Positions 6,457 through 64,000 of a stretch of 64,000 nt of DNA are shown piece after piece. The stretch comes from a virus. The notes beneath the pieces were generated by a model. It saw only the letters and a program-made list of their open reading frames with translations. It was not told where the DNA came from and searched no databases. Both the position numbers and the translations under genes were made by a program. The stretch is from IMG/VR virus record IMGVR_UViG_3300044640_002737, positions 309,468-373,467 of that record; one strand, given 5' to 3'. The stretch's first letter is position 1. Every line of letters starts with the position of its first letter.

Positions 6457-6458
6457 AT

Positions 6459-6713
6459 TTAGTATATATTAGAGGACTCATCCTTTGGTAATTTTTTAAT
6501 CTCTGCAGATAATTCTTTCATAAGTCCAGAAATCTCAGCATATATTAATGCTTGCTTATCTATACTGGAAACTTCAGAATTAACATCCCCCTCTTTTTTA
6601 GAAGCTTTAGCTTCCTTTATATCATCGAATTTTTTTGTTATTTCGAGTTTAATTTCTTGAACTCTACCCTTTCCTTCGATTTCATTCATTTTAAAATCTT
6701 TGAAATTAAGCAT
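6459..6713 (-). CDS. Small probable internal head protein (84 aa)
   Basis: A lysine/glutamate-rich helical protein. Its N-terminus LNFKDFKMNE|I looks like a capsid-targeting leader with a cleavage site at Glu11, comparable to T4 internal proteins that begin MKTYQEFIAEA. Its start overlaps the end of the upstream gene by 8 nt, and its stop is 2 nt before the next start, so it is translationally coupled in the head operon. No catalytic motif. Confidence 0.65.
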   Translation of the reverse strand: MLNFKDFKMNEIEGKGRVQEIKLEITKKFDDIKEAKASKKEGDVNSEVSSIDKQALIYAEISGLMKELSAEIKKLPKDESSNIY

Positions 6714-7596
6714 TCTTTCTAGATATTGTTATTTTAGATCTTAATTCTCTTATATCACTCATGTGCTTCTCTCTGATGTCTTTTAGTTCTTTGGAAGCCT
6801 CCTCTTTTGTTAATTGGCCCTTAGATATCAAAGAGTTTATATTTTCTCTTTCCATATCCATCTGAACATATAGCTCATTTCGGTTCTTTATCAGAAGATT
6901 TGTCAATTCTCTTCTCTCCTTAGGATCCAGAGATTCTATTTCCTTAGTAAATTCACTAAGTGACATGGCTATGTAAAGATCTAGAGTTGCCTCCGATATA
7001 CCAGATTTTGAGGTAGTTTTTTGTTGAGCGGTCTGAGTTTTTTTATAAGAACCCTTTAATAGATCACCATACTTTTCCTTGAATTCATCATCCTTTTTCT
7101 TTGCTTTTAATACAGAATCCTTGTATTTATTATAAAGGTCTCTAGACAATGTCTCGTCAGCAAGATCTTTGGATCTTTTGTACATGTCTTCAGCTATCTC
7201 CGAATCAACTCGTGTCTTATTAACTTCCCAGTATGTTCTAAGTTTAGCATTGTCATTTATTAGGGATTTTACCTTGACCATTATGTGATCTATCTTCTTA
7301 ACATGTGATTTCTTCATATTAGAAAGCAATTCCTGATTTCTTTGTACGTATCTTTCGATTTTCTTATATTCAGCAGGATCCGATTTGGTCTGATCCTTTT
7401 GTAGATCTAGTTTATCCAATTCTATATTAACCTTTTCCCACTCATCAATATACTCTTCCTCGGCAGATCTATATTCAGTTATTAGATTCTCCATCTTATT
7501 TAGGGCACCTCCGAAATTGACACTAAACCAATCTTTAACCTTATCAAAGATATTAGCTTCATTCAGCTCATTCCATTCTTTAAATTTAAGAGTCAT
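6706..7596 (-). CDS. Coiled-coil probable internal/scaffold protein (296 aa)
   Basis: Almost entirely charged helix, with long Lys/Glu heptad-like stretches and no catalytic motif. The N-terminus LKFKEWNELNE|ANIF ends in a strong match to the T4 prohead-protease site (LNE|A at residues 11-14). Position directly after the capsid gene block and before other proteins of the same style suggests a core or internal head protein, like T4 gp22, gp67, gp68 or the IP proteins, but there is no sequence match I can name. Confidence 0.65.
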   Translation of the reverse strand: MTLKFKEWNELNEANIFDKVKDWFSVNFGGALNKMENLITEYRSAEEEYIDEWEKVNIELDKLDLQKDQTKSDPAEYKKIERYVQRNQELLSNMKKSHVKKIDHIMVKVKSLINDNAKLRTYWEVNKTRVDSEIAEDMYKRSKDLADETLSRDLYNKYKDSVLKAKKKDDEFKEKYGDLLKGSYKKTQTAQQKTTSKSGISEATLDLYIAMSLSEFTKEIESLDPKERRELTNLLIKNRNELYVQMDMERENINSLISKGQLTKEEASKELKDIREKHMSDIRELRSKITISRKNA

Positions 7597-7602
7597 TATT
7601 TA

Positions 7603-8745
7603 TTATTTATTTAGTTTTTTCCTAGCTGAATTTATGATATCAACAGTAACTGTATTACCCCCTGAAAATACTTCACTTATGATCTTCTTAGTACCAGAAT
7701 TAGCATCGTTACCATCACTTATAACTTGATTTATCTGATTTGCCATCTTAGTAAAATCTGATTCACCTTTAAGACTGTTAGTTATTTCATTCTCTGTTTT
7801 ACCTAAATTTCTAAATAGTGCTAGAAGATTTGTTTTTGAATCAAGGGATGATGCCAATTCTAAAAGATCCATCTTATATGGATTCACGGATCTAGCACTA
7901 ATTGGTGTTTTTGATTTGCTTATTTTATCAGATAATCTATTTAGCTTTCTCTCAATGGACGATCTAATATCAGCTATATCTTTTTCCAATTCATTCTTTC
8001 TTTGTATAATATCTCTACCTTTTCTGCTGGAGATTTTCTTTTTCTCCTCTCGTGGATCCACTCTTAAATTACCGGTTGATTCATCGTCCGCTTTTTCCTT
8101 TTCTACATCCTCCATTTTTGATTTAAGATCCGAACTTTTTTCCTCATATTCAGCTTTGGCAGTTTTTATCTTATCCTCATAATCTTTAAGAACTGATGAT
8201 TCTTCAGATCTTTCCTTAGCTAATTTATATTCCAATTCAGCAATAGCAATCTCATCCTCAGAATATCCTGCCATAAGATATTCTCTTCTTCTGGCATTAC
8301 CATCAACTAATTTATTAGCAACTTCTTTGGATTTTTTAATTTTAAGTCTCTGAGCCTTTATATAAGCCTCCATTTCTTTAGCTTTAGCTTCTCTTTCTTT
8401 ACCAAGTGCAACGACTTTATCATTCTCTTCGGTTTTACTTAATTCGTCAATCTGTGAATTTATTTTATCAACAGCTAATTCGAATTCATTTCTTTTCTCT
8501 ATTAAATCAAGCTCAAGCTCAAGTATTATCTTTCTAGCCTCGTCCAGCATACTTACTCTGGAAGCTGAACCCAAAAAGAACTTGGATAATGTATTTTTTA
8601 GCGAATTCATAATTTGTCCCTCATTAACAGAATGATATGGATCAGCAGTTTCGAGTGATCTAAGTTCAGCAACTAAATCACTTTCGGTTCTTTCCAGAAA
8701 ATGATCGTATTTTTTATATTCTTCGAATGAAGGTAAATTTTTCAT
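7603..8745 (-). CDS. Coiled-coil probable prohead core protein (380 aa)
   Basis: The protein is mostly coiled coil, with repeated Lys/Glu-rich helices between about residues 60 and 280. The leader NLPSFEEYKKYDHFLE resembles the other aromatic leaders here. It is the first gene after the capsid terminator and has its own late-promoter motif GATATATAG at 8770-8778, 24 nt before the ATG. Role as prohead core or internal protein is inferred from position, composition and leader. Confidence 0.65.
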   Translation of the reverse strand: MKNLPSFEEYKKYDHFLERTESDLVAELRSLETADPYHSVNEGQIMNSLKNTLSKFFLGSASRVSMLDEARKIILELELDLIEKRNEFELAVDKINSQIDELSKTEENDKVVALGKEREAKAKEMEAYIKAQRLKIKKSKEVANKLVDGNARRREYLMAGYSEDEIAIAELEYKLAKERSEESSVLKDYEDKIKTAKAEYEEKSSDLKSKMEDVEKEKADDESTGNLRVDPREEKKKISSRKGRDIIQRKNELEKDIADIRSSIERKLNRLSDKISKSKTPISARSVNPYKMDLLELASSLDSKTNLLALFRNLGKTENEITNSLKGESDFTKMANQINQVISDGNDANSGTKKIISEVFSGGNTVTVDIINSARKKLNK

Positions 8746-49530: not shown

Positions 49531-49902
49531 TTAGTATTTTTCGTATGATTTTTCCTCGGTAAAAATAGAACCATATTTTAAATTTATATACTTTTTAATT
49601 TCTGACCTTTTGTCATTAGTTATATAAACTGATCTAGCCAAAGATATAAATTCCGAGTCAAATATTTTTCTTCTTTCCTTTATTCTTATCCTATCCTCTA
49701 TCTTCCATAATTCCTCGTTGATTAAAACAAGTCCGGAAAAATCTTCGTAATCAATCAAAAGATCGTTAAATACAATCGAATAGAGGTATTCAAACTCACT
49801 GTTTATATTAACAAGTTTATCCCTATCCGATATATTATTTTTCTTAATTTCTAATATTGATAACTTATCAACAATTTCTCCCACAGAAACGTCTATTCGC
49901 AT
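49531..49902 (-). CDS. DUF6165-like small protein (123 aa)
   Basis: The N-terminal block IDVSVGEIVDKLSILEIKKNNISDRDKLVNINSEFEYL is typical of DUF6165 proteins, which often lie beside heptosyltransferases and surface-glycan genes; their function is unknown. The rest is helical, with no catalytic motif. It is the last gene of the operon that begins with the giant fibre, 37 nt after the 959-aa fusion and just before a strong terminator. Confidence 0.65.
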   Translation of the reverse strand: MRIDVSVGEIVDKLSILEIKKNNISDRDKLVNINSEFEYLYSIVFNDLLIDYEDFSGLVLINEELWKIEDRIRIKERRKIFDSEFISLARSVYITNDKRSEIKKYINLKYGSIFTEEKSYEKY

Positions 49903-49939
49903 AAATTAAAAAGTTTTTCTATTTATCATATTTTTAATA

Positions 49940-52819
49940 CTATCTATTATCTATGTATATAAGGACCTCATTATAATACTCTATAAAATGTTCGTTCCAT
50001 AGATCCCATTTTATATCAATACCATCTAATGATAATACCTCATATCGATCGAACTCTATTAATATATTATCCCGGAAATCCCTGAATTTTTCTTTATTTT
50101 CTTTACTCATTAAATGCCATTCGCCGGCAATCTTCTTTATATTTTTTTTAATAAAGTCAAGATTATCTTTCTTAAAAATCTCATATTCACCGCCCTCACA
50201 ATCAGTTTTCATGAAATCTATCCTATTCAGACCGTATAATTTAACGAGCTTATCAAAGGTAATGGATTCCATATGTGTTTCTCCTCCAAATAATTGATCA
50301 TATTCGATAACTCCATTTATATCTGATAATCCCTTATTTATATGAGTAACCGGATTACCTAATGTATTTTTAACTAGTGTAGTAAATTCACTCTCACTAG
50401 GTTCTATACAAAATACATGTTTAGGATTTTTCTTTAATATCGAATATGTGAATGGGCCGACGCTAGAACCAACATCCAATACAATATCGGAATGATCAAC
50501 TTCAAAGAATCTCTCATATATTTTTTGCTCAAATATCTCATTATACATAAGTTTCTTGTGATAATTACCATTAGAACTACCATCGTTCATCCAACCCCAA
50601 TCAAAATTTGGTATGTGATTTTCCCCAATTAATCTATCTATTTCCTTGGTAACCATATTAGAATTAATTTGTTTTGTACACTCAAACATTCTCTCCGAAT
50701 TTTTATGTAATGGACACCAATTCCAATCTCCAGCATCTAGCATTTCCGAATTAAAGCATCCGTGGCAAACATCCTCGTTAATAATTCTATATGTGTCGGA
50801 TGAAGTTTCAGAAAATCTTTCACTAAATCCAGAAATCAAAATGATTGGTAATTTACATGACCAAGCTAGCCAACTTAATCCAGAGCCCAAGCCAATGAAA
50901 AATTCACACTCACACAGATCATTTATTACATCCTGTAGATTTCCGCCTTTAAACACATCAACATTTTTTGGATATGCATTATTCATATATCCGTCTCCCT
51001 CTCTGGAATATATCATGCATTCATAACCAATCGAATTAAGATGATCAATTACCTCTTGCCATCCGTTAGGATTGTTCCAGTATTTGGCCTGAGCAGTTGA
51101 ATGAAATCCTATCCCAACTTTTTTCTTTTTTTTCACGTTAGGTAAATTTAAACGAGGCTTTATTTCCTTATATTCGAGACCGAGTATATCAGTGGCTGTC
51201 TTCTGTAAAGGTTGTTTTCTAAAGTCGTTTGGAACCTTATTATAATCAATATTTCCGTTACTGTCATAATACCATCCAATATTATATTGGGCATATAAAT
51301 TATTTACAGTTTCCCCTGGATTGACAAAAGTAATATTGGGATACTGTTCAATGAATAAGTGATTAATGAACGTAGAAACTATCAATTCGCAATTATGAAT
51401 TTTTCTAAATTCCTCCATGTAAGGTATCCACGCAAGAGTATCACCTAGAGATTTAGATCCAAATGCAATATAAACTCTTCTGTCCCTAAGATCTAATGAA
51501 TTCTTATATATTATTTCACCATTTTCATATACCGTTGTGTCCCATTTGGTATAATATTTTCTGTTTAATTTCGACCAGCTATTAAAATTTAGGAGATCCG
51601 AATGTATAATTTTTCCACCATCAGAGAATTCCACCTTAAATTTATTACTACTACTGCCTCTTAATTCGAAATAGGGCTGACCAACAAAATGTTGTATAAA
51701 CTCGTAGTCATTTTCTATTTTAGGCTGTGGTGTTATTTCTATCTCCATTACCTTCCTATAGAAATCCAATAATGTCCTACCAAAATTAGAATCATCAGGT
51801 ACCTGATATTCAATATCAGATTCAAGCATATCAATAAGTCGTCCCGATATTTCTTTTATATCACCCTCTATCGGAGTGATGTATCCATCATACATGTTAT
51901 AATATTGCGGTAGATTTCTGGCTAATATCTTCATGCCATATCCTATGGCTTCTCTTATAACTAAAGGATTGCATTCCCAGGTAGAATTAAACATCATGGC
52001 GTCACATGCTATCATGAATTCATCAACATCGTCACGCTCCCCCCATATCTTAACATTGCTTGGTAGATTCTTTGTTATATCTCCCCAGTAATTTTCGAAA
52101 TTTGGAGCTAAATTACCTACAAAATGAAAAAATACATCAGGACTAGATGATTCTATGAATCTAGCAATTTCTATTCCCTCTCCCTGATTCTTTCCACTAG
52201 TCCATAATCCAACATTGAGAACGTTTTTCTTATTTCTATCAAATCCCAGTTTTTTGATAGAATTCTTCCTATTTTTTATTCTTATATCTGTTTTATTCTC
52301 ATATGGATATAGATGAAGCTCCTTATATGAGGACTCAGATGCGAATGTTTTTTCCGTATGATGTGGTGAAATTAATGAATATGCATCAGGTTTTAATTTT
52401 TTAAATTCTTTCGGATCAAACCAAATATTATGACAGGTTTCAATCATTCTCCAGCTTCTATCATCGGAATATAACATGTTAATTAAATCAGCAGGGATCT
52501 TATTAAAACTTTCAAATCCCTCTAATATTTCCTCTGAATGAACTAAATCTATATCATTATCCTTAATTATCTGAATTATCTCATATTTTCTTCTAGTATC
52601 GGATGTATCCCCCAGTGTAAAGAAATGATCACTGTCAATCATTTCAAGTATTGAATTTCTTTGGACAACATAGGTATCACTAAATTTGGAGTACTCGACA
52701 ACAAAGATTTCTATCTCATCACTATATTCATTAAGTTTCTGTATTCTCTTCAGTGCGAACTGAGGCATTCCACCGGTTGATAGATGTGGGGTTAAATATA
52801 ATAGTTTAATTCTCTTCAT
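49940..52819 (-). CDS. Three-domain enzyme: GT4-like glycosyltransferase, TibC-type O-heptosyltransferase, FkbM methyltransferase
   Basis: Residues 1-355 are a GT-B glycosyltransferase (TPHLSTGGMPQ near the N-terminus; NVGLWTSGKNQ at 202-212; AMMFNSTWECNPLVIREAIGYG at 274-295). Residues about 370-733 match bacterial autotransporter O-heptosyltransferases (TibC/Aah type): FVGQPYFELRG, SLGDTLAWIPYMEEFRKIHNC at 457-477, YNIGWYYDS, SGLSWLAWSCKLPIILISGFSE and the metal-binding Cys685, Cys688, Cys702 and Cys714. Residues about 775-958 are an FkbM-type methyltransferase (LDVGSSVGPF 781-790, DFMKTDCEGGEYE 868-880). The gene overlaps its upstream neighbour by 14 nt. Substrate inferred: the adjacent fibre, or host surface protein. 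Confidence 0.85.
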   Translation of the reverse strand: MKRIKLLYLTPHLSTGGMPQFALKRIQKLNEYSDEIEIFVVEYSKFSDTYVVQRNSILEMIDSDHFFTLGDTSDTRRKYEIIQIIKDNDIDLVHSEEILEGFESFNKIPADLINMLYSDDRSWRMIETCHNIWFDPKEFKKLKPDAYSLISPHHTEKTFASESSYKELHLYPYENKTDIRIKNRKNSIKKLGFDRNKKNVLNVGLWTSGKNQGEGIEIARFIESSSPDVFFHFVGNLAPNFENYWGDITKNLPSNVKIWGERDDVDEFMIACDAMMFNSTWECNPLVIREAIGYGMKILARNLPQYYNMYDGYITPIEGDIKEISGRLIDMLESDIEYQVPDDSNFGRTLLDFYRKVMEIEITPQPKIENDYEFIQHFVGQPYFELRGSSSNKFKVEFSDGGKIIHSDLLNFNSWSKLNRKYYTKWDTTVYENGEIIYKNSLDLRDRRVYIAFGSKSLGDTLAWIPYMEEFRKIHNCELIVSTFINHLFIEQYPNITFVNPGETVNNLYAQYNIGWYYDSNGNIDYNKVPNDFRKQPLQKTATDILGLEYKEIKPRLNLPNVKKKKKVGIGFHSTAQAKYWNNPNGWQEVIDHLNSIGYECMIYSREGDGYMNNAYPKNVDVFKGGNLQDVINDLCECEFFIGLGSGLSWLAWSCKLPIILISGFSERFSETSSDTYRIINEDVCHGCFNSEMLDAGDWNWCPLHKNSERMFECTKQINSNMVTKEIDRLIGENHIPNFDWGWMNDGSSNGNYHKKLMYNEIFEQKIYERFFEVDHSDIVLDVGSSVGPFTYSILKKNPKHVFCIEPSESEFTTLVKNTLGNPVTHINKGLSDINGVIEYDQLFGGETHMESITFDKLVKLYGLNRIDFMKTDCEGGEYEIFKKDNLDFIKKNIKKIAGEWHLMSKENKEKFRDFRDNILIEFDRYEVLSLDGIDIKWDLWNEHFIEYYNEVLIYIDNR

Positions 52820-53735
52820 ATAAATTAATATTATTGTGTGTTATGGATCTTATTTTTTCAGTTATATCTTCGGTTAATCCGTTATATTCAATTATGACAG
52901 ATATCATGTCATCGCGAGATAATTCAAGATCTATTATATCTCTATCAGCTATTTCGTATATTTTTGTGGTTGAATTAAGGTGGATTTTTAAATCAATATG
53001 ATTTTTAACACCATAGAAATAAATTTTAATAGAATTATTTTCCATAGCATTTTTAGCTATGAAATACCTAAATTCAGAAAATCCCGAATAATTAAAAAGA
53101 TCTACTCCATTATGAAAAAGTATATGGTCATCAACATAACAATCATCCACTTTATACGGCAAATCTGAATTCTCCAGGTAGTTTTTTAGCCAGGTTTCAG
53201 CAATTCCACAAAATTCAATATATTCATTTATATTTAATCCAGATATAAATGATACTAAGTTTTTCCTATCAAATAGCATAAAATGTAGACTTACCCAATG
53301 CTCATGGAAATGATAGAAATTACATTCCGCATCGGATAGTATACCACTCAAAACGGTATCGTCAATTTTTATATCATATATTATATGGTAGAAATATTCA
53401 TAATCATACGTTAATGCATATTCTGATAATTTTTTTACCTGATGGATATTTGCCCATCCGTAATCAGGTAGACATCTATTCATAATTATTTTCTTCCCTT
53501 TACATCGATATTCAGACCAAACCGATACCGATTTAATTGGCCAGTCGATAATCGGATTATCTTTAGTTCTTATATAATAATCGCATAATGAGGAGACCCT
53601 ATTTGGTATATCAATAGGACTATTAAGCATAACATCCAGACCGAGATTTTTTAGTGTTCTTATATTAGATTCTAATACACTAATCTTTTCCTCATTATCG
53701 CAATATGAACTAATCAATATTATTTTATTACCCAT
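52806..53735 (-). CDS. Probable GT-A type glycosyltransferase (309 aa)
   Basis: The N-terminus IILISSYCDNEEKISVLESNIRTLKNLGLDVMLNSPI and the later YEYFYHIIYDIKIDD (about residues 112-126), a DxD-like acidic segment after a beta strand, resemble bacterial glycosyltransferases that act on lipopolysaccharide or capsule. I cannot name the family. The C-terminal 80 residues may be a separate beta domain. It overlaps the downstream fusion gene by 14 nt and follows the GT9 gene by 8 nt. Confidence 0.55.
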   Translation of the reverse strand: MGNKIILISSYCDNEEKISVLESNIRTLKNLGLDVMLNSPIDIPNRVSSLCDYYIRTKDNPIIDWPIKSVSVWSEYRCKGKKIIMNRCLPDYGWANIHQVKKLSEYALTYDYEYFYHIIYDIKIDDTVLSGILSDAECNFYHFHEHWVSLHFMLFDRKNLVSFISGLNINEYIEFCGIAETWLKNYLENSDLPYKVDDCYVDDHILFHNGVDLFNYSGFSEFRYFIAKNAMENNSIKIYFYGVKNHIDLKIHLNSTTKIYEIADRDIIDLELSRDDMISVIIEYNGLTEDITEKIRSITHNNINLYEEN

Positions 53736-53743
53736 CCGGATAC

Positions 53744-54676
53744 TTATTTATTAACAGTGGACATTATTTTATTATAAACACTCATTACGCTTGGATGGCA
53801 TTCGAAAGTTTTCTTTCCCTCCAGACATCCGACCAACGAAGGTATTCCCTGTATCGTGTTCCATTCTCTTACACCATATTTTATATCAGACGCACATTTC
53901 AAATTACATCCACCAGAAACATAATGGTATTTATATTCCTGAGATCCCTTTCTATATGGTGCTCTAAACTTATTATCTATTGAACTGCCTAATTGAATTA
54001 TTTCAGAATCGGTAGTACCTGCTAAATGTAGAAGACCAGAATCCATAGTAACGAAGCATTCACTTTTTTCAATCAGCCACCACGTCTGAGATAATGATGT
54101 TTTGTTCTGTAAATTCATACCCAATTCAATATCAAAATTAAAGGTTGGCTTTTGAACATTGGATCCACCCATTTCGGATGACTCCTTTCCGACAGAAACC
54201 ACACTTATTCCGCCCGCATTCAAAGCTCTGACTAATAGAATCCATTTTTCTCTATCCCATGTTCTGGATTCCCAGTTTTGTACGGGATGTATAAGAACGT
54301 ATCTATCGGGAAGTCCCTGTATTTCTTCAAAATCAGAAGGGAAAAAATCCAAAGTAAGTTCCTCCTGATTTAACATGAATCCAAGGCTAATTGCATGGAA
54401 CTGCCTAATGTCAATAGTATTATGCTTATTGCATATGCCATCGGATTTATAGTTTACATCGAAAGTTCTAAATATTTCGAAATCATCATCCAAATCAAGA
54501 TCACCAGGAAGATATAGAGAATCAACATATGGATTATTTCTAAATATATCTGTATGATGAGTTATTATAGATATTTTTCTACCATATGAGTAATATAGTT
54601 TACGCAAAACTGGCGATACACATAATGTATCGCCAATAGCTCTAGCCTCGCTTATATCTATACAGAGTTTCTTCAT
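53744..54676 (-). CDS. GT9-family heptosyltransferase-like protein (310 aa)
   Basis: A GT-B enzyme of the heptosyltransferase group: RAIGDTLCVSPVLRKLYYSYG near residues 12-32, YVLIHPVQNWESRTWDREKW near 125-145 and TMDSGLLHLAGTTDSEIIQLG near 212-232 (the family D-S-G-x-x-H-x-A motif). The C-terminus has four Cys (GGCNLKC, GCLEG, FECHP), like the metal-binding set of TibC-type enzymes. It would add a heptose or related sugar from an ADP/NDP donor. Confidence 0.75.
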   Translation of the reverse strand: MKKLCIDISEARAIGDTLCVSPVLRKLYYSYGRKISIITHHTDIFRNNPYVDSLYLPGDLDLDDDFEIFRTFDVNYKSDGICNKHNTIDIRQFHAISLGFMLNQEELTLDFFPSDFEEIQGLPDRYVLIHPVQNWESRTWDREKWILLVRALNAGGISVVSVGKESSEMGGSNVQKPTFNFDIELGMNLQNKTSLSQTWWLIEKSECFVTMDSGLLHLAGTTDSEIIQLGSSIDNKFRAPYRKGSQEYKYHYVSGGCNLKCASDIKYGVREWNTIQGIPSLVGCLEGKKTFECHPSVMSVYNKIMSTVNK

Positions 54677-54682
54677 AAGGAA

Positions 54683-54958
54683 TTACATATCCTTCGTAAA
54701 TAATCCAGTCTCAAAATCGAGTTTACCTTTACCGTATTTACCGACTACCTTCTCCTGCAAAGCTTCCTCCCTAGCATATATGTCAGAAGCTTCGTTATGT
54801 AAGGATTCTAATTCGTTGTTTATAGCGGAAAGGTCCTTCTCGTAAAAGGATTTCTGTACACTTAATCTACCCACTTTAATTATATTATCCATCAAAACCT
54901 CTTTCAGATTTTGAATTTCTAAAATTAGATCTTCAGGTAATTTTAATTCATTTTCCAT
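54683..54958 (-). CDS. Small coiled-coil protein (91 aa)
   Basis: Helical and heptad-like from about residue 8 to 75, with a short C-terminus FETGLFTKDM. No catalytic motif. It lies between the two GT9 genes, 6 and 11 nt from them, so it belongs to the operon. It might be an assembly partner of a glycosyltransferase or a chaperone, but there is no family evidence. Confidence 0.55.
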   Translation of the reverse strand: MENELKLPEDLILEIQNLKEVLMDNIIKVGRLSVQKSFYEKDLSAINNELESLHNEASDIYAREEALQEKVVGKYGKGKLDFETGLFTKDM

Positions 54959-54969
54959 ATTTTTTATTT

Positions 54970-55845
54970 TTATTGTTTATTTATGCTATCTATAATATCG
55001 CTAATATTAAAAATGTCATTCATATCGGAATATGGTATTCTACTGATATCCTCAAATAACATATATTTCTGATAGTAATTATTCGATATATCGTGCTTTT
55101 CCGTATGTGGATTAGCAATTATATTATCATGTATATTATAGCCAAAAACTTTGGGATTTGTTCCGATCCAGGCAACTGTTGACGGTAAACCCAGGGAAGA
55201 TGCTATATGCATCGCAGATGAGTCTATAAGAAGTCTTTTTTCTGAAAGGGTCAGCATAATTGCAATGCTTCTAAAATTATCCAATGCAGAAATTGTGTTA
55301 TCATATTGAAATTGATCTTCCCTTCTTATATGTACCACGGAATAATCATCTTTATAGTGCTCTATAATATTCTCAATTATTGGTTGCGGAATATCTCGGG
55401 TCCAGCTATATTTTAGAGGTTGCTCTATGCTTCCACCATTCGGATGTATAGCCATTATAGGCTTATCTAATTTATAAAACTGCTCATAATATTGTCTTTC
55501 AGATTTACTTATAAATAATTCAGGCAGTTCCCCATCATAAGGGACACCACACAAATCGCACCATATCTCGATAAGATGTTTTTTTTCCGTTATAAAATCG
55601 GAGGTTGTGTATGGATCGGTAATAAATACTTTAGCTTCCTTGTTGTTAATAAAATCCCTATAAATTGGACCCGCATTTGCGTGGGTAATAATTCTATTAA
55701 CATTATTATTACCTTTAAAAACATCGGGATATGATGTTACCACTATTATGTTATCTCTAGTATACTGTTTACGTAAAGCTTTTACTACAGCGGTGGACAT
55801 AAAGCTTTTACCCAATCCACCAGAAACCTCCAATATTATATTCAT
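54970..55845 (-). CDS. GT9-like glycosyltransferase (291 aa)
   Basis: The GT-B/GT9 layout is visible: VSGGLGKSFMSTAVVKALRKQY near residues 7-28, IMAIHPNGGSIEQP near 138-151, SVVHIRREDQFQYD near 173-186 and LLIDSSAMHIASSLGLPSTVAWIGTNP near 212-238 (the family DS-x-x-H-x-A motif). The N-terminal Gly-rich loop GGLGKS is like the acceptor-side loop of heptosyltransferases. No membrane segment. It follows the DUF2061 gene by 4 nt. Confidence 0.72.
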   Translation of the reverse strand: MNIILEVSGGLGKSFMSTAVVKALRKQYTRDNIIVVTSYPDVFKGNNNVNRIITHANAGPIYRDFINNKEAKVFITDPYTTSDFITEKKHLIEIWCDLCGVPYDGELPELFISKSERQYYEQFYKLDKPIMAIHPNGGSIEQPLKYSWTRDIPQPIIENIIEHYKDDYSVVHIRREDQFQYDNTISALDNFRSIAIMLTLSEKRLLIDSSAMHIASSLGLPSTVAWIGTNPKVFGYNIHDNIIANPHTEKHDISNNYYQKYMLFEDISRIPYSDMNDIFNISDIIDSINKQ

Positions 55846-55849
55846 GTGC

Positions 55850-56104
55850 TTATTTTTTTGATCCTATCCTGATGAATTTATACCAAATTCTCTCATGCAA
55901 AAAATATATAATAGGCTTGAAAACAATCTCTCCCATACCTAGTAATGATGCTAATTCTACCGAAGCTCCTAACATATATGCAGTAATTACAGTTGTCATC
56001 GTGCCTAATATTCTATAAGAAAGTGTTTTTAATATGTGTCTTATCATATTAGATCTATTTTCTTTTCTATCTGACTTTTTTAGAATTTCCTGATTAGTTT
56101 CCAT
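55850..56104 (-). CDS. DUF2061 membrane protein (84 aa)
   Basis: Residues about 24-78 (HILKTLSYRILGTMTTVITAYMLGASVELASLLGMGEIVFKPIIYFLHERIWYKF, given as landmarks) match DUF2061, a short two-helix membrane family of unknown function. Its TAA/ATG junction overlaps the nucleotidyltransferase gene by one base. In this operon it sits between sulfate/nucleotide enzymes and glycosyltransferases, so it may handle a membrane-linked sugar or help the activated intermediates; this is inference. Confidence 0.75.
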   Translation of the reverse strand: METNQEILKKSDRKENRSNMIRHILKTLSYRILGTMTTVITAYMLGASVELASLLGMGEIVFKPIIYFLHERIWYKFIRIGSKK

Positions 56105-56508
56105 TATAATTTTCCTTCTTTCCTTAATTCCTCTCTAACCGCAGTTGCTGATATATTGGCTATTTCAGTTGGTGGGATATGTTCGATTATATCGTAACCA
56201 ACACCTCTACCAAATTCAACTGAGCATATATCTGGAATTATTATGATCTTTGCTAGCCTTTCACTAACTAGATCTCTAATCTCGGAATGTATATTAAGCA
56301 TAACTTCGTTGGGAGTCCAAGGATTTTTTTCATCTGGCTCAATATCTCTGATTGCAATTAATACCTTCTTACCATCGTTTATAGCTTGTTGAAACATAGC
56401 TTTGTGACCTGGATGAAGTGGTTGCCATCTACCAATAAACATAGCATATTGACTATCTTTAGGCTGCAGTGATGATTTTACATGGACTTTTTTTGACCAA
56501 TTTTCCAT
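56104..56508 (-). CDS. HxGH-type nucleotidyltransferase (134 aa)
   Basis: A small nucleotidyltransferase of the cytidylyl/NMN-adenylyl type: FIGRWQPLHPGHKAMFQQA near residues 24-42 carries the HxGH motif, and ISATAVREELRKEG at the C-terminus is the ISxTxxR motif. Substrate unknown. It is not a plain ATP sulfurylase: the QTRNPxHRxH-type motif is absent. Its start lies 31 nt inside the APS kinase gene, so the two are coupled. It might activate a sugar phosphate to an NDP-sugar for the transferases downstream. Confidence 0.72.
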   Translation of the reverse strand: MENWSKKVHVKSSLQPKDSQYAMFIGRWQPLHPGHKAMFQQAINDGKKVLIAIRDIEPDEKNPWTPNEVMLNIHSEIRDLVSERLAKIIIIPDICSVEFGRGVGYDIIEHIPPTEIANISATAVREELRKEGKL

Positions 56509-56927
56509 AATATTTGTTTTAGTGATTCAGTTTCTGATATTCCAGTAGTGTCAATATCAGTAAAATCTTCAGTAGGTTTTTGATATTCTGCTACATGAAA
56601 AGATTCTCTTCCCCTTATTTCAGAAGTATGTATATAAAATTCGACAGCTCCATTTTCGCATTTTAGACTGTCTCTAAGATCTTTATACGGGCTAACCAAT
56701 GATATTATTATATTGTTATTAACGTCCTGCCTAGATAAGTATTTAGCTATCGAATGAGCTGTCTCTATGTTCTTTCTTCTTCCCGCTTCAGAATAATCCT
56801 TATTATTCAGTATTTCCCTCAGATCGTCACCATCTATAACGAAAGATTTATCCAAAGAATTTTTTAAATGATTAGCGAGGGTTGTTTTTCCTGAATGAGG
56901 TTGACCGGTTAGTATATAAATTGCCAT
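56478..56927 (-). CDS. cysC: APS kinase-like (CysC family)
   Basis: The 149-residue P-loop kinase has Walker A GQPHSGKTTLA (8-18), IDGDDLREILN, YSEAGRRKNIETAHSIAKYL and the SPYKDLRD motif, in the CysC order. It would phosphorylate adenylyl sulfate to PAPS, the donor for the sulfotransferase encoded just upstream. It is slightly short at the C-terminus. No ATP sulfurylase is visible here, so APS would have to come from the host. It overlaps the next gene by 31 nt. Confidence 0.82.
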   Translation of the reverse strand: MAIYILTGQPHSGKTTLANHLKNSLDKSFVIDGDDLREILNNKDYSEAGRRKNIETAHSIAKYLSRQDVNNNIIISLVSPYKDLRDSLKCENGAVEFYIHTSEIRGRESFHVAEYQKPTEDFTDIDTTGISETESLKQILWKIGQKKSM

Positions 56928-56956
56928 TATTATAAAAATTAATTATCGATTATTTA

Positions 56957-57775
56957 TTACACATATTCAAAATAATCATAGAACCATCCATAGGTATTCT
57001 TGATTGCCTGAGAAAGCTCAAATCCTAATATCTCCTCATAATCATCAGGTAGTCTTTTAAATTCGGTTCTTAATTTATGATCACCGTATATTCCATGAAT
57101 TAAATCATTTTCATGTGTTACCTGCTCGATTGTTTTAAAATTATGTCCTGGATAATAGTCAATCCCTATATAGTCGTAGAATCTTTTAACCTCTGATTCT
57201 GGATCGCTCATAAGGTCCTCGTATCTAATAAAAAGTATATTTTTATCTATTCCCTGATCTATTATATCTCTCAATCTATCAACAGAAACACCAACAGGTA
57301 CACCATCAGCCCAAATATCTATTCTTTTTCTGAGAGTTGTACCGACCAATTCCGGAACATTCTGCACATGATTCTCGCGATGTGGGTTTTTTCTAAAATT
57401 CTTCTCCATTGATGAATATACGGATCTAAGATCCCTAACCATACAGACAACCTTGGGTTCGTGCTGGAGCATATTAAGAAGTCCGTAATTTACTCCCCAT
57501 TCCCTACTTTTTTCGAGTACAAATGGTTTGTCCGTTATGTCATTAAAATATCCCTGAATTCCTGCCATACAATATCCTATGAAAGCTTTCTTCATGACCT
57601 CCGGATCCTGAGCTAAAACAGCTTGCGAATTATTATAAGCGTTCTTGGAGGAAAGCACCATGTCAGCAAGTCCCGAAGTGGGAGTGCAATAGAAATCAGG
57701 ATTTTGTGCAATTATATTTTGCCAAAGTGTTGATCCAGATCTAGGTAATGATGAGTTGAATATTATTTTTTTCAT
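56957..57775 (-). CDS. PAPS-dependent sulfotransferase
   Basis: The N-terminus IIFNSSLPRSGSTLWQNII holds the 5'-phosphosulfate loop (PRSGSTL), and VCMVRDLRSVYSSMEKNF holds the 3'-phosphate site (R-x7-S) of cytosolic-type sulfotransferases. RYEDLMSDPESEVKRFYDYIGI is also family-typical. It would transfer sulfate from PAPS to a hydroxyl or amine of a sugar or protein. I chose ATG at 57775; a TTG at 57778 would add one residue. The start codon lies inside an inverted repeat. It is the first gene after the giant fibre. Confidence 0.85.
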   Translation of the reverse strand: MKKIIFNSSLPRSGSTLWQNIIAQNPDFYCTPTSGLADMVLSSKNAYNNSQAVLAQDPEVMKKAFIGYCMAGIQGYFNDITDKPFVLEKSREWGVNYGLLNMLQHEPKVVCMVRDLRSVYSSMEKNFRKNPHRENHVQNVPELVGTTLRKRIDIWADGVPVGVSVDRLRDIIDQGIDKNILFIRYEDLMSDPESEVKRFYDYIGIDYYPGHNFKTIEQVTHENDLIHGIYGDHKLRTEFKRLPDDYEEILGFELSQAIKNTYGWFYDYFEYV

Positions 57776-57820
57776 CAATCGAGATGTTTTTATTATTATA
57801 CTGCGATTGATGAAAAAAAT
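57765..57820. promoter_or_regulatory. Inverted repeat covering the sulfotransferase start
   Basis: Two perfect 17-nt inverted arms (57765-57781 and 57804-57820, core CGATTGATG followed by A7) flank a 22-nt spacer. In the minus-strand transcript the downstream arm contains the ATG of the sulfotransferase, so folding would hide its start; there is no T-run after the arm, so it is not a classic terminator. It may hold down translation after the fibre gene. Confidence 0.55.
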
Positions 57821-57830: not shown

Positions 57831-60800
57831 TTATTCTGATTGCGGGGTTTCAGTTCTTTTGGGTTGTGGTGTTTCAGCGCCTTTCCAGAATTTAGTATTC
57901 TTATCTTTCCTTGTACCTATAACAAGTACATCATATTCTATATCAAGATTTGCCTTAATTGTTATCTTTGAATACGTGTCGTCTATAACACCATAAGCAA
58001 TTCCAAATCCATTTTTAGGTGTTATCCAAACTTGAGCGTCTTTATTTAGATATTTGAAATAATCTGGTAAGTCAATTATTGCTTCCCCGTTAACAACTAC
58101 AATATTAAATCTATAAATATTATCCCCTGCTGTTGGTGATTCAACAAAAGAGTGATTTAATCTCAATTCATCACTTAATTTAGGGTTTGGGTGGTCAATA
58201 CTAAAAGTACCACCACCAGTTTTAACAATATATTGGACAAATGTTGCGTTATTTTGATTAGCAGTAAGATTACTTCCTAACATATGCACATTATAGCAAC
58301 CTGCTGTATCATTATTAAAACCACCTCCTATGGAGCTATAACATGAACCACTTCGAATTTTATGATATCTTCCGCCCCCGATAAAAGAATGGCAAGCACC
58401 CTGATATATTGCATTCTGCCTTCCACCAGCGATCGAACTAAGACAAGCATAACCAGTGATAATATTTCCATATCCACCTCCAATAAATGATCTTATGGCA
58501 TCACCATCAATGGCATTATCCTGTCCTCCAACAACTGAGGAGCATCCTGTGTTTTTAGTTACAAAGTTGCCCTTTCCTCCTCCGATAAATTTATGGCTAG
58601 CAGAACCAATCTGATTTGAAGCTCCCCCTCCGATTGCTGAATAACCAGCGTCCACGGAATTTTGATATCCTCCTGAAATCACAGCAGCTATACCACAACT
58701 ACCTATCTCATTTCCACATCCACCACCAATTGTTGCAAGATCTGAATCACCTGCAGCACTATTGGTATTACCTCCACCGATAGTTGCCCTACGACTAGCT
58801 ATGGAATTATCAAATCCACCACCAATAGTTGAGCAAGCACCAGTTATAAGGTTACATAACCCTCCCGAAATGGTAGCTCTTGGAATACAAACTCTGTTAA
58901 GACAACCACCACCAATTGTTGAATAACAGGAGCTAATATAGTTAACAAGGCCTCCACCGATTACTGAATTACAGGATAGGTTAGTTGTTCGATTATAGCA
59001 ACCTCCACTGATTACTGAAAAAGCAGCTCCTGAAGAATTGCATCTACCGCTTAGGGCTGCACTGTAATTTGCAGTTGCCTGGTTATTCGCACCACATCTA
59101 ATTGATGAACAAATACCGCCACCTAATACAATAACTGCAGCTGCACCACCACTACTAGTACCTGAAGTACCATTAGTACCTGATGTTCCTGGGCTACCTG
59201 GACTACCTGGACTACCGTTAGTACCTGAAGTTCCATTAGTACCTGAGGTTCCGTTAGTACCGTTAGTACCAGATGTTCCTGGGCTACCTGGACTACCTGG
59301 ACTACCGTTAGTACCTGAAGTTCCATTAGTTCCATTAGTTCCCGATGTTCCAGATGCACCATCTACACCATTGATACCTGATGTTCCATTAGTACCTGAA
59401 GTTCCATTAGTACCTGAAGTTCCATTAGTACCTGAAGTTCCATTAGTACCTGATGTCCCATTGGTTCCTGAAGTTCCATTAGTACCGTTAGTACCTGATG
59501 TCCCATTAGTTCCTGAAGTTCCATTAGTACCGTTAGTACCTGATGTCCCATTAGTTCCTGAAGTTCCATTAGTTCCGTTAGTACCCGATGTTCCGTTAGT
59601 ACCCGATGTTCCGTTAGTACCCGATGTTCCGTTAGTACCATTAGTACCTGATGTTCCATTAGTACCGTTTAATCCGCTTACACCCGATGTTCCATTAGTA
59701 CCTGAAGATCCATTAGTACCGTTAGTACCTGAAGTTCCGTTAGCACCTGAAGTTCCATTGGTTCCGTTGGTTCCTGAAGTTCCATTAGTTCCGTTGGTTC
59801 CTGAGGTTCCATTAGTTCCTGAAGTTCCGTTAGTACCTGAAGTTCCATTGGTTCCATTGGTTCCCGAAGTTCCGTTAGTACCTGAAGTTCCATTGGTTCC
59901 ATTGGTTCCCGAAGTTCCGTTAGTACCCGAGGTTCCATTAGTTCCATTGGTTCCTGAAGTTCCATTGGTTCCTGAAGTTCCATTAGTTCCGTTGGTTCCT
60001 GAAGTTCCATTAGTTCCGTTGGTTCCTGAGGTTCCATTAGTTCCTGAAGTTCCGTTAGTACCTGAAGTTCCATTGGTTCCATTGGTTCCTGAAGTTCCAT
60101 TAGTACCTGATGTTCCATTGGTTCCTGAAGTTCCATTGGTTCCGTTAGTTCCTGAAGTTCCATTGGTTCCTGAAGTTCCATTAGTACCTGAAGTTCCATT
60201 AGTACCTGAAGTTCCATTAGTTCCGTTGGTTCCTGATGTTCCATTAGTACCGTTAGTACCTGATGTTCCATTAGTTCCTGAGGATCCATTAGTACCCGAT
60301 GTTCCGTTGGTTCCATTAGTACCTGATGTTCCATTAGTTCCTGAGGATCCATTAGTACCCGATGTTCCGTTGGTTCCATTAGTACCTGATGTTCCATTGG
60401 TTCCTGAGGATCCATTGGTTCCTGAGGATCCATTAGTACCAGATGTTCCATTAGTACCGTTAGTACCTGATGTTCCATTGGTTCCTGAGGATCCATTAGT
60501 ACCAGATGTTCCATTAGTACCGTTAGTACCTGATGTTCCATTGGTTCCTGAGGATCCATTAGTACCTGATGTTCCGTTGGTTCCATTAGTTCCTGATGTT
60601 CCATTAGTACCTGATGTTCCATTAGTACCGTTAGTACCTGAGGATCCATTAGTACCTGATGTTCCATTGGTTCCTGATGTTCCGTCAGTACCATTGGTTC
60701 CTGATGTTCCATTGGTTCCTGATGTTCCATTAGTACCTGATGTTCCATTAGTACCGTTAGTACCTGATGTTCCATTGGTTCCTGATGTTCCGTTAGTACC

Positions 60801-63800
60801 TGAGGATCCATTAGTACCTGATGTTCCATTGGTACCGTTAGTACCCGATGTTCCGTTAGTTCCTGATGTTCCGTTAGTACCTGATGTTCCGTTAGTACCT
60901 GAGGTTCCGTTAGTACCGTTAGTACCTGAAGTTCCATTGGCTCCTGATGTTCCGTCAGTACCGTTAGTACCTGAGGATCCATTAGTACCTGAGGTTCCGT
61001 TAGTACCTGATGTTCCGTCAGTACCGTTAGTACCCGATGTTCCATTGGTTCCTGAGGATCCATTAGTACCTGAGGTTCCGTTAGTACCGTTAGTACCTGA
61101 TGTTCCATTGGTTCCTGAGGATCCATTAGTACCTGATGTTCCGTTAGTACCTGATGTTCCATTGGTTCCTGAAGTTCCGTCAGTACCTGAAGTACCATTG
61201 GTTCCATTGGTTCCATTGGTTCCTGATGTTCCGTTGGTTCCATTAGTACCTGAAGTTCCATCAGTACCTGAAGTTCCGCCACCAACAACTAATGATCCGG
61301 TAATCCAAGTACCTGAACTCTCACCGTGTATGTCTTGCGATGTTGGATTAGAGGTGTAAGCAGTAACCTCGATATAATCAGTAGAACCATTAAAATATAC
61401 TATAATATCAATTTCTTGACCGTACCCTTCAGTAGTAACAAGTGGAAATTGTTGAATCGCAACTTGTGTACTACCATTTTTTCTAAGTTGGATATTATTT
61501 TGCCCTGATACTGTTGACGCAGGATACCACCATACCGAAACTTGAATAATATAATACCCTTCAATGTTTGGTTGGAATTTATTGGATGTTATCCAACCAT
61601 TAGGGTCAAACTCATCAACAAATGTTACAACTTGGTCACTTCCATTTGTTATTGTTTGAATGGTACCTCCTTTAACTCCTTTAGCAACGTAATTAGATGC
61701 TGTTAAATTACCTCCATCAGTCCCTGAAGTTCCGTCAGTACCTGAGGTACCATTGGTTCCGTTTGTTCCTGATGTTCCATTGGTTCCTGATGTTCCATTG
61801 GTTCCTGATGTTCCATTGGTTCCGTTTGTACCTGACGTACCATTAGTTCCTGACGTACCATCCGTTCCACTAGTTCCGTTAGTACCTGAAGTTCCATTAG
61901 TTCCGTTAGTACCTGATGTTCCATTAGTACCGTTAGTACCTGAAGTTCCATTAGTTCCCGATGTTCCGTCAGTACCGTTAGTACCTGAAGTTCCGTTTGA
62001 TCCCGATGATCCGTTAGTACCTGAAGTTCCTGATGTACCAGCGATTTGACCAACTGATGTTATTATATATGAATAGTTAGCATTACCTTCAGTATAAAAT
62101 ACAACACTACGACTTGTCGAATCTAAATTATTAAGATAAAGTCTTATCGCCATTCTATCAGTTGTGGATATTGATGTTGTAGGTAATACTATATCAACCT
62201 CAAGTAATCCCGGATTAGTTGGGTCAACATAAGGCAATGCACTAACATTAGAAGTTATTGTAGGTCCCATTAAAGACCCCGATGAATCAGCCAATTGGAT
62301 TTCAACATACCCTTCAACATCAGCGTTTACCGCAGGTAGTAAATAATATAACTTAAATCTTTGTACACCACCAGGTATTATTGAAAATCCTAATTCAGGT
62401 GTCATAAAATCTTGAACTAAAGCACCAGTTTGACTACCTGTTAAATTTGTAGTTACCGTTACTTGACCCGTAGATGTTGGATTTAAACTTAATTCTTTGT
62501 AACCTGAAACGTCCGAATTAATACTTTCATTGAAAAAATATATTTGACCTGATGATATTCCATCTACGCCGCTAGTTCCAGCTGTTCCTGATGTTCCGTT
62601 AGTACCTGAAGATCCGTTAGTACCTGATGTTCCATTAGTTCCATCAGTTCCCGATGTACCGTTAGTACCACTTGTTCCATCGGTACCACTTGTTCCATCG
62701 GTACCACTTGTTCCATCAGTACCACTTGTTCCATCAGTACCACTTGTTCCATCAGTACCACTTGTTCCATCAGTACCACTTGTTCCATCAGTACCACTTG
62801 TTCCATCAGTTCCTGAGGTTCCATCAGTTCCTGAGGTTCCAGATGTTCCATCAGTTCCTGAGGTTCCATCAGTACCACTTGTTCCAGAAGTTCCATTAGT
62901 ACCACTTGTTCCAGAAGTTCCATCGGTACCACTTGTTCCATCGGTACCTGAAGTTCCATCAGTACCACTTGTTCCAGAAGTTCCATCAGTACCACTTGTT
63001 CCAGAAGTTCCATCAGTACCACTTGTTCCGCTTGTTCCATCAGTACCTGATGTTCCAGAAGTTCCATTGGTACCACTTGTTCCATCAGTACCACTTGTTC
63101 CAGAAGTTCCATCGGTACCACTTGTTCCGCTTGTTCCATCAGTACCACTTGTTCCATCAGTACCACTTGTTCCATCAGTACCACTTGTTCCAGAAGTTCC
63201 ATCGGTACCACTTGTTCCGCTTGTTCCGTCAGTACCACTTGTTCCAGAAGTTCCATCAGTACCTGAAGTTCCGCTTGTTCCATCAGTACCTGAAGTTCCA
63301 TCAGTACCACTTGTTCCAGAAGTTCCATCAGTACCACTTGTTCCAGAAGTTCCATCGGTACCACTTGTTCCGCTTGTTCCATCGGTACCTGAAGTTCCAT
63401 CAGTACCTGAAGTTCCATCAGTACCTGAAGTTCCATCAGTACCACTTGTTCCAGAAGTTCCATCAGTACCTGAAGTTCCGCTTGTTCCGTCAGTGCCTGA
63501 GGTTCCGCTTGTTCCATCGGTTCCGCTTGTTCCATCGGTACCACTTGTTCCAGAAGTTCCATCAGTACCACTTGTTCCATCAGTACCACTTGTTCCATCA
63601 GTACCACTTGTTCCATCAGTACCTGAAGTTCCATCAGTACCGCTTGTTCCAGAGGTTCCGTCAGTACCACTTGTTCCCGAAGTTCCGTCGGTTCCACTTG
63701 TTCCATCAGTACCACTTGTTCCATCAGTTCCACTTGTTCCATCAGTTCCACTTGTTCCATCAGTTCCTGAGGTTCCATCAGTTCCTGAGGTTCCAGATGT

Positions 63801-64000
63801 TCCATCAGTTCCTGAGGTTCCACTTGTTCCATCGGTACCAGAAGTCCCATCGGTTCCACTTGTTCCATCAGTACCACTTGTTCCATCAGTACCACTTGTT
63901 CCATCAGTTCCACTTGTTCCATCAGTTCCACTTGTTCCATCAGTTCCTGAGGTTCCATCAGTTCCTGAGGTTCCAGATGTTCCATCAGTTCCTGAGGTTC
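57831..64000 (-). CDS. Giant collagen-like phage fibre protein, 5' end outside the window
   Basis: The frame is open from the window edge to the stop at 57831, at least 2056 codons. From the N-terminal side it contains: a Gly-Thr-Asp/Ser collagen-like block (about 64000-62566); a beta domain (about 62565-62049); a second collagen-like block (about 62042-61718); a C1q-like domain (about 61717-61283: GYYIIQVSVWWYP, QLRKNGS, DYIEVTAYT); a long Gly-Thr-Asn/Ser block (about 61282-59152); YadA-like head repeats of the type STIGGGxxN (about 59140-58255); and a conserved C-terminal domain (FSIDHPNPK, HSFVESPTAGDNIY, IIDLPDYFKYLNKD, VIGTRKD). The first ATG in frame, at 62405, is internal. It probably forms a trimeric host-binding fibre. 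Confidence 0.85.
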   Translation of the reverse strand, partial: TSGTDGTSGTSGTDGTSGTDGTSGTDGTSGTDGTSGTDGTSGTDGTSGTDGTSGTDGTSGTSGTDGTSGTSGTDGTSGTDGTSGTDGTSGTDGTSGTDGTSGTDGTSGTSGTDGTSGTSGTDGTSGTDGTSGTDGTSGTDGTSGTDGTSGTSGTDGTSGTDGTSGTSGTDGTSGTSGTDGTSGTSGTDGTSGTDGTSGTDGTSGTDGTSGTSGTDGTSGTSGTDGTSGTSGTDGTSGTDGTSGTSGTDGTSGTSGTDGTSGTSGTDGTSGTSGTDGTSGTDGTSGTDGTSGTSGTDGTSGTSGTDGTSGTNGTSGTSGTDGTSGTSGTDGTSGTSGTDGTSGTSGTDGTSGTDGTSGTDGTSGTSGTNGTSGTSGTDGTSGTDGTSGTSGTDGTSGTDGTSGTDGTSGTDGTSGTDGTSGTDGTSGTDGTSGTDGTSGTDGTSGTNGTSGTDGTNGTSGTNGSSGTNGTSGTAGTSGVDGISSGQIYFFNESINSDVSGYKELSLNPTSTGQVTVTTNLTGSQTGALVQDFMTPELGFSIIPGGVQRFKLYYLLPAVNADVEGYVEIQLADSSGSLMGPTITSNVSALPYVDPTNPGLLEVDIVLPTTSISTTDRMAIRLYLNNLDSTSRSVVFYTEGNANYSYIITSVGQIAGTSGTSGTNGSSGSNGTSGTNGTDGTSGTNGTSGTNGTNGTSGTNGTNGTSGTNGTSGTDGTSGTNGTSGTNGTNGTSGTNGTSGTNGTSGTNGTNGTSGTDGTSGTDGGNLTASNYVAKGVKGGTIQTITNGSDQVVTFVDEFDPNGWITSNKFQPNIEGYYIIQVSVWWYPASTVSGQNNIQLRKNGSTQVAIQQFPLVTTEGYGQEIDIIVYFNGSTDYIEVTAYTSNPTSQDIHGESSGTWITGSLVVGGGTSGTDGTSGTNGTNGTSGTNGTNGTNGTSGTDGTSGTNGTSGTNGTSGTNGSSGTNGTSGTNGTNGTSGTNGSSGTNGTSGTNGTDGTSGTNGTSGTNGSSGTNGTDGTSGANGTSGTNGTNGTSGTNGTSGTNGTSGTNGTSGTNGTNGTSGTNGSSGTNGTSGTNGTSGTNGTNGTSGTNGTSGTNGTSGTNGTDGTSGTNGTSGTNGSSGTNGTNGTSGTNGTSGTNGTNGTSGTNGSSGTNGTSGTNGTNGTSGTNGSSGTNGTSGTNGTNGTSGTNGSSGTNGSSGTNGTSGTNGTNGTSGTNGSSGTNGTSGTNGTNGTSGTNGSSGTNGTSGTNGTNGTSGTNGTNGTSGTNGTSGTNGTSGTNGTSGTNGTNGTSGTNGTSGTNGTSGTNGTNGTSGTNGTSGTNGTSGTNGTNGTSGTNGTNGTSGTNGTSGTNGTNGTSGTNGTSGTNGTNGTSGTNGTSGTNGTNGTSGTNGTSGTNGTSGTNGTNGTSGTNGTNGTSGANGTSGTNGTNGSSGTNGTSGVSGLNGTNGTSGTNGTNGTSGTNGTSGTNGTSGTNGTNGTSGTNGTSGTNGTNGTSGTNGTSGTNGTNGTSGTNGTSGTNGTSGTNGTSGTNGTSGTNGTSGINGVDGASGTSGTNGTNGTSGTNGSPGSPGSPGTSGTNGTNGTSGTNGTSGTNGSPGSPGSPGTSGTNGTSGTSSGGAAAVIVLGGGICSSIRCGANNQATANYSAALSGRCNSSGAAFSVISGGCYNRTTNLSCNSVIGGGLVNYISSCYSTIGGGCLNRVCIPRATISGGLCNLITGACSTIGGGFDNSIASRRATIGGGNTNSAAGDSDLATIGGGCGNEIGSCGIAAVISGGYQNSVDAGYSAIGGGASNQIGSASHKFIGGGKGNFVTKNTGCSSVVGGQDNAIDGDAIRSFIGGGYGNIITGYACLSSIAGGRQNAIYQGACHSFIGGGRYHKIRSGSCYSSIGGGFNNDTAGCYNVHMLGSNLTANQNNATFVQYIVKTGGGTFSIDHPNPKLSDELRLNHSFVESPTAGDNIYRFNIVVVNGEAIIDLPDYFKYLNKDAQVWITPKNGFGIAYGVIDDTYSKITIKANLDIEYDVLVIGTRKDKNTKFWKGAETPQPKRTETPQSE
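58255..59140 (-). repeat. YadA-like head repeats in the fibre
   Basis: Repeats of about 24 residues carry the pattern [ST]-x-[IV]-[SG]-GG-x-x-N-x-I, for example SVIGGGLVN, STIGGGCLN, ATISGGLCN, STIGGGFDN and SSIGGGFNN. They are Cys-rich, unusual for exposed repeats, and resemble trimeric autotransporter head domains that form left-handed beta-rolls. Confidence 0.75.
59152..61282 (-). repeat. Collagen-like triplet array (Gly-Thr-Asn/Ser), block 3
   Basis: The coding strand is a run of 9-bp units for G-T-x. Larger identical units are visible, for example a 63-bp (21-residue) unit repeated in tandem near 60451-60576. A short GSPGSPGSPG stretch occurs twice near 59185-59305. Gly at every third position with Thr at X predicts a collagen-like triple helix. 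Confidence 0.85.
61718..62042 (-). repeat. Collagen-like triplet array, block 2
   Basis: About 108 residues of G-T-S/N/D triplets between the two globular domains of the fibre. Same composition as block 3. Confidence 0.85.
62566..64000 (-). repeat. Collagen-like triplet array (Gly-Thr-Asp/Ser), block 1, continuing off the window
   Basis: At least 475 residues of G-T-D-G-T-S triplets, richer in Asp than block 3, built of 9-bp and 18-bp units. The frame is consistent to the window edge, with no stop or indel, which the unbroken neighbouring frame also shows. Confidence 0.85.

Follow-up and report, generated by a model that had tools for sequence, protein, structure and literature searches.

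What a phage does with a single polypeptide in which two glycosyltransferases and a methyltransferase are joined, and on which acceptor such an enzyme would act, is the question raised by a gene in the 64-kb window analyzed here (the whole stretch of DNA under study, which is the end of a 373,467-base virus record and also carries terminase, tail-sheath, and head-closure genes). The original prediction, which read the gene product as a fusion of GT4, TibC-type, and FkbM domains, was confirmed with regard to architecture: the ORF, its coordinates, and its length were exact, and the Pfam and NCBIfam profiles defined three non-overlapping domains, each above its curated cut-off (Table 1). The N-terminal part matched PF00534 (Glycos_transf_1) at aa 184-336 (33.8 bits; cut-off, 26.4), the middle part matched TIGR04414 (hepto_Aah_TibC) at aa 402-729 (273 bits; equivalog cut-off, 200), and the C-terminal part matched TIGR01444 (FkbM) at aa 780-884 (46.5 bits; cut-off, 37.7) and PF05050 (34.8; cut-off, 22.7). 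Expected catalytic motifs were recognized in all three domains: GT4 residues His-130, Lys-210, and the EX7E pair Glu-282/Glu-290 in domain 1, the residues described below in domain 2, and the SAM motif DVGSSVG together with DCEGGE in domain 3.

Table 1. Coordinates of the features discussed, numbered from the first base of the window
Feature	Position	Strand	Basis
Three-domain enzyme, 959 aa	49940..52819	-	ORF list, family profiles, structure model
Domain 1, aa 1-361, GT4-type GT-B glycosyltransferase, EX7E pair Glu-282/Glu-290	51737..52819	-	PF00534, fold match, conservation
Domain 2, aa 371-737, TibC-type glycosyltransferase	50609..51709	-	TIGR04414, TibC 4rb4 Z 37.2, residue mapping
Domain 3, aa 741-959, FkbM-family methyltransferase	49940..50599	-	TIGR01444, PF05050
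Codon of Val-631, which replaces TibC Arg-286 (adenine contact)	50927..50929	-	Alignment; PMC4358343
DUF6165 protein, next gene downstream of the enzyme	49531..49902	-	PF19662, 34.1 vs cut-off 27
Protein without family match, 309 aa, overlapping the enzyme gene start	52806..53735	-	Pfam, NCBIfam: no match
Second glycosyltransferase, GT9 (heptosyltransferase-like) fold	53744..54676	-	PF01075, 51.2 bits vs cut-off 22
Possible sulfation cassette: DUF2061, adenylyltransferase-like, APS-kinase-like, sulfotransferase	55850..57778	-	PF09834, PF01467, PF01583, PF13469 over cut-off
Candidate acceptor, very long Gly-Thr/Ser-x repeat protein	57831..64000	-	ORF list, reading-frame check

The nearest solved structure in the sequence search was that of TibC (4rap; E, 9e-66). 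An AlphaFold2 model of the enzyme, built from 28 relatives, had a mean pLDDT of 85 and a pTM of 0.52, and because of the latter value the relative placement of the domains is uncertain. In this model, aa 371-737 superposed on TibC residues 21-393 with a Z of 37.2 and an rmsd of 2.7 (357 residues, 36% identity), and consisted of an N-terminal β-barrel, a catalytic GT-B core, a thumb (Tyr-611/Met-612), and an iron finger with Cys-685, 688, 702, and 714. The complete GT-B enzyme predicted before this part was also found: aa 1-361 matched the GT4 structures HepE, BshA, PimA, and WaaG (Z about 26), sharing their fold and the EX7E pair; since identities were 11-18%, these structures do not indicate the donor or the acceptor. 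An FkbM structure was not among the matches of this fold search, by which aa 741-959 were barely probed; the FkbM domain is indicated by its two profiles and two motifs, and differs from the known FkbM methyltransferases in being fused to glycosyltransferases.

In TibC, Asp-110 acts as the base, the phosphate is bound by Thr-226 and Lys-230, and Trp-305 contacts O4 of the heptose; Cys-339, 342, 358, and 370 are the iron ligands, and Phe-265, Val-266, and Phe-368 form the ring contact (PMC4358343). The first four residues aligned with Asp-460, Thr-575, Lys-579, and Trp-650 of the phage enzyme. The GDTLAWIPY block and the four cysteines were located where they had been predicted, and aligned with the Asp-110 loop and the iron ligands of TibC, respectively; these cysteines and Asp-460 were invariant in 28 aligned relatives. 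By alignment, the ring-contact positions hold Tyr-611, Met-612, and Phe-712. The sole loss among five sugar-site residues was that of Arg-286, replaced by Val-631. In TibC, this arginine makes a contact with adenine N1, described as weak, to which ADP specificity is ascribed, and activity of the alanine mutant was lost or largely diminished (PMC4358343). ADP-heptose therefore cannot be assumed to be the donor; of the proposal that the enzyme adds a heptose, the TibC-type core with its catalytic residues stood, while the heptose itself is not established.

Among other sugar genes, the record had one resembling GDP-mannose dehydratase (391 bits vs a cut-off of 415), one resembling GDP-fucose synthase (241 vs 500), and a gene for UDP-galactopyranose mutase (359.5 vs 303.75). 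These genes, the first of the GDP-mannose 4,6-dehydratase type, lie in a second sugar cluster (L361 4754-10036; about 14.7-20 kb of the record), which also encodes a stand-alone FkbM methyltransferase and has several glycosyltransferase-like genes. A phage-encoded ADP-heptose pathway was considered and rejected: the sole match was an rfaE_dom_II-like protein below the cut-off, with isomerase, kinase, and phosphatase outside the search. This stand-alone heptose-1-phosphate adenylyltransferase-like protein (L360 7233-7646; 107 bits, cut-off 181.5) likewise resembles glycerol-3-phosphate cytidylyltransferase.

The three-part fusion was not confined to this record. In IMG/VR, 212 stretches encoded relatives of the enzyme, and removal of near-copies left 66 non-redundant viral TibC-type proteins. 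GT4-TibC-FkbM was found in at least 16 complete proteins of this set and GT4-TibC in 21, the rest having TibC alone, TibC-FkbM, or other N-terminal parts; alternative partner domains in relatives were Gly_transf_sug, GT25-like, and Methyltransf_23. Six relatives scored as GT4-FkbM-TibC-FkbM, possibly an artefact of fragmentary matches, and were counted as GT4-TibC-FkbM only. Recurrence of the three-part fusion in many viral contigs (50-65% identity) means that it is not due to chance. Furthermore, the homologous GT4 was a gene of its own immediately upstream in about ten further phage contigs, sometimes overlapping (3558-4535 and 4526-5731 in L334), and the fusion thus represents a gene module that has been joined, not an oddity. 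A unique fusion was ruled out by this common and modular architecture. The view of TibC-type enzymes as mainly single-domain modifiers of bacterial autotransporters did not extend to the present case, in which the enzyme is phage-borne, fusion is common among relatives, and partners are swapped. A deep-branching TibC-like branch was also seen in the same kind of phage (L351, L352, and L354; 771-783 aa), with Met at the Arg-286 position and an N-terminal part that matched the GT4 profile weakly.

The enzyme gene belongs to a cluster (49531-57778) encoding ten proteins: the DUF6165 protein, the fusion enzyme, the 309-aa protein without family match, the GT9 protein, the products of two genes that are small or of no recognized family, and the four proteins of the possible sulfation cassette. 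By Pfam, no autotransporter family was present among these ten. The GT9 protein reached no NCBIfam heptosyltransferase cut-off. In the possible sulfation cassette, by which the phage glycan may be sulfated, the APS-kinase-like protein was below the NCBIfam cut-off, and the adenylyltransferase-like protein resembles NMN-adenylyltransferase. A 123-aa ORF similar to the DUF6165 protein comes after the TibC-containing gene in another locus (L339).

Directly upstream of the cluster, on the same strand, is the gene for the repeat protein. Its ORF was listed as 57831-62405 (1524 aa), and the frame is stop-free up to the window and contig end; the protein is hence longer. The 1524-aa part contained 273 triplets in long runs (X = Thr in 245 and Ser in 20). 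Across the whole record, the GTSGTN pattern occurred near both contig ends and at one site at 29 kb, and nowhere else. The opposite contig end (L341 3-2078) starts within another repeat ORF on the same strand; in the simplest reading, the two would be parts of a single gene interrupted by the contig ends, and the record may be circular and broken within the repeats. ORF 62564-63985 is an out-of-frame reading of the GXY repeats; together with ORF 59371-61359, it exemplifies the wrong-frame or antisense readings that are a pitfall for automatic annotation.

The association between such repeats and TibC-type enzymes was not limited to this locus. Ser/Thr-rich triplet repeats were found in all 23 TibC-carrying phage records, which had been selected by TibC, and the reversed pattern in none. 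Among contigs selected by terminase, repeats were present in 11 of 17 with TibC vs 2 of 10 without, and among 14 complete or near-complete phage genomes in 2/3 vs 0/11; the pooled values (13/20 vs 2/21) gave a one-sided Fisher p of 2.7e-4, with relatedness of the phages ignored. Triplet repeats were absent from the TibC-positive G026, G029, G030, G034, G045, and LR756504, although several of these contigs end near the gene. A repeat ORF was found in the fetched flanks of 44 of the 66 non-redundant viral loci vs 6 of 69 bacterial loci, and all six of the latter belong to the phage-like clade described below. Proximity between fibre and glycosyltransferase genes may also come from their shared location in variable host-interaction regions.

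In a tree of 69 rows (IQ-TREE quick search), bacterial autotransporter-type enzymes including TibC formed a 12-row clade (support, 99). The phage enzyme was outside it, within a clade of 52 rows that came mainly from phages (support, 93). There it belonged to a set of 14 phage rows (96), itself part of a set of 39 rows (98) wholly without Arg-286. Methylococcaceae and Polaromonas formed a six-row group (99) nested in the phage clade. Arginine was absent from the Arg-286 position in 90 of 91 viral domains of a query-led search, and kept in 94 of 105 bacterial rows; another phage branch, with GT4 as its own gene, retains it. The idea that the loss goes with the repeat partner was discarded, the terminase-based sample including Arg-286-keeping phage homologues in repeat-bearing genomes; the loss is a subclade trait.

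At bacterial loci L088 and L090-L095, a phage-like single-domain TibC homologue adjoins a GTSG-repeat ORF. The pairs span 4917-7119 (L090), 4899-7119 (L091), 4933-7089 (L092), 4850-7089 (L094), 5839-7909 (L093), and 5983-7426 (L088). On the methanotroph and Polaromonas chromosomes, the neighbor with GTSG/GTAG repeats is secreted or lipoprotein-like, a bacterial system of its own. In those genomes, of 2.6-5 Mb, GTSG-type repeats were limited to a few places (the places listed exclude those of L092). Four genomes whose enzymes belong to the autotransporter clade gave 0-4 pattern matches and no GTS-type tract, and at two loci with such enzymes (L099 and L102) the adjoining long ORF had AIDA-like repeats.

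From the observed domains, residues, phylogeny, and co-occurrence, we infer an acceptor, a donor, an order of steps, an oligomer, and a purpose as follows. On balance, and only just, we consider it probable that this is a virion-glycosylation enzyme of the phage, whose TibC-type domain would O-glycosylate Thr/Ser of the phage's own fibre-like repeat protein, with extension by the GT4 domain and methylation by the FkbM domain. The first sugar would be transferred from a nucleotide sugar to the Thr/Ser hydroxyls of Gly-Thr/Ser-x triplets in the long protein encoded beside the cluster; by analogy with TibC, Asp-460 would serve as the base, with Thr-575 and Lys-579 as the phosphate ligands. Candidate donors are ADP-heptose or the nucleotide sugars that the phage may help to make by its GDP-mannose-, GDP-fucose-, and UDP-Gal-mutase-type genes. 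In a plausible order (add, extend, methylate), the fused GT4 domain would then attach a second sugar, and O-methylation of the glycan would fall to the FkbM domain; the adjoining GT9 and sulfation genes may contribute further modifications. As in TibC, the iron finger and thumb could form a ring oligomer around the repetitive substrate, a shape well fitted to so long a repeat protein. The dense sugar coat would give rigidity or protection to a collagen-like, proline-poor stalk, or else adjust host recognition.

That the enzyme works like TibC, as a protein O-glycosyltransferase with the same fold and chemistry, is likely. A true ADP-heptose-dependent O-heptosyltransferase of an autotransporter-like β-helix protein, with subsequent extension by GT4 and methylation by FkbM, would fit the TIGR04414 equivalog match, TibC as the closest structure, the kept base, phosphate, and heptose-O4 residues, and the adenylyltransferase-like protein, itself below its cut-off. 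This reading is nevertheless quite improbable: the adenine-reading arginine is valine here and lost throughout the subclade, the domain lies outside the autotransporter clade, and 0 of 10 scanned cluster proteins was an autotransporter. Since adenine contact, clade, and autotransporter partner all came out negative, we did not class the enzyme as a bacterial autotransporter heptosyltransferase. An autotransporter acceptor, as originally suggested, is probably not involved, in view of the empty cluster scan, the repeat-protein neighbor, and the co-occurrence with Gly-Thr/Ser repeats. Use of ADP-heptose on the phage repeat protein, with the Arg-286 loss offset elsewhere in the pocket, is a sub-case of the virion-glycosylation explanation, with which its probability overlaps. 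The other sugar-site residues are all kept, the adenine contact has been described as weak (PMC4358343), and the proteobacterial relatives adjoin GTSG proteins; however, the phage sugar genes point at least equally to GDP-/UDP-sugars and the complete heptose pathway was not found in a search extending to neither isomerase, kinase, nor phosphatase, leaving this sub-case rather doubtful.

LPS and capsule are common targets of GT9, GT4, and FkbM enzymes, and the cluster contains sulfotransferase and GT9 genes, so that a host surface glycan or host protein might be modified (e.g., to block superinfection) and the proximity of the fibre gene be incidental. We consider this unlikely, because the repeat-protein partner recurs in phages and bacteria, and only protein acceptors are known for the TibC-type core with its barrel and iron finger (PMC4358343). 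Large aquatic phages carry glycosyltransferases of unknown target, for which DNA glycosylation has been discussed (PMC12619734). TibC-type enzymes have protein acceptors, and the homologues on bacterial chromosomes adjoin secreted repeat proteins. Phage glycosyltransferases often glycosylate phage DNA, but for these two reasons glycosylation of the phage DNA by this enzyme is very improbable indeed.

Compared with known systems, the TibC/AAH family (BAHT; TIGR04414; PDB 4rap and 4rb4; PMC4358343) resembles the phage enzyme in the whole-domain fold including the β-barrel, the catalytic Asp, phosphate Lys/Thr, Trp, the four iron Cys, and, perhaps, the hydrophobic thumb positions. The phage enzyme differs in lacking Arg-286, in its separate phage clade, in fusion to GT4 and FkbM, and in being phage-borne with a Gly-Thr/Ser repeat protein as partner; the TibC acceptor known in E. 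coli is a β-helix and not a triplet repeat. Microcystis phage Mel-JY01 encodes a protein (CDS 4750-8430) with a GT4-containing N-terminus and a TibC-type C-terminus (46% identity), and has Ser/Thr triplet repeats in the same genome, although this protein ends with the TibC domain. Synechococcus phage DSL-LC02 has the FkbM part in common, beside tail-fibre and collagen-like genes, but is without a TibC domain, and the strict repeat pattern gave no match. Phage glycosyltransferases are known to modify phage structural proteins, as in capsid and tail tube glycosylation of mycobacteriophages (cited in PMC12619734); their acceptors are different, and in the text read no TibC-type enzyme is described. 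Collagen-like genes of freshwater phages lie in a variable, possibly host-recognition island (PMC10202952). Descriptions of phage TibC homologues were not found in the open-access literature, which is not proof of their absence.

More broadly, and tentatively, phage and nested methanotroph TibC-like enzymes might form a distinct protein O-glycosyltransferase subfamily that uses a non-heptose or non-ADP donor to hyperglycosylate collagen-like Gly-Thr/Ser-x repeats in viral fibres, the fusion starting, extending, and methylating the glycan, possibly in a substrate-threaded ring; in its entirety, this proposal is possible rather than probable. Proline-poor Gly-Thr/Ser triplet repeats were abundant in the large environmental phages studied here, and the stabilization or diversification of such fibres was not accounted for in the open-access papers found. 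A testable answer is offered by a widespread glycosylation enzyme, often part of a fusion, whose gene lies beside those of the fibres; the isolated phage Mel-JY01 and the cultured methanotroph Methylobacter luteus are practical systems for such tests. If true, the TibC family would extend from bacterial adhesins to virions.
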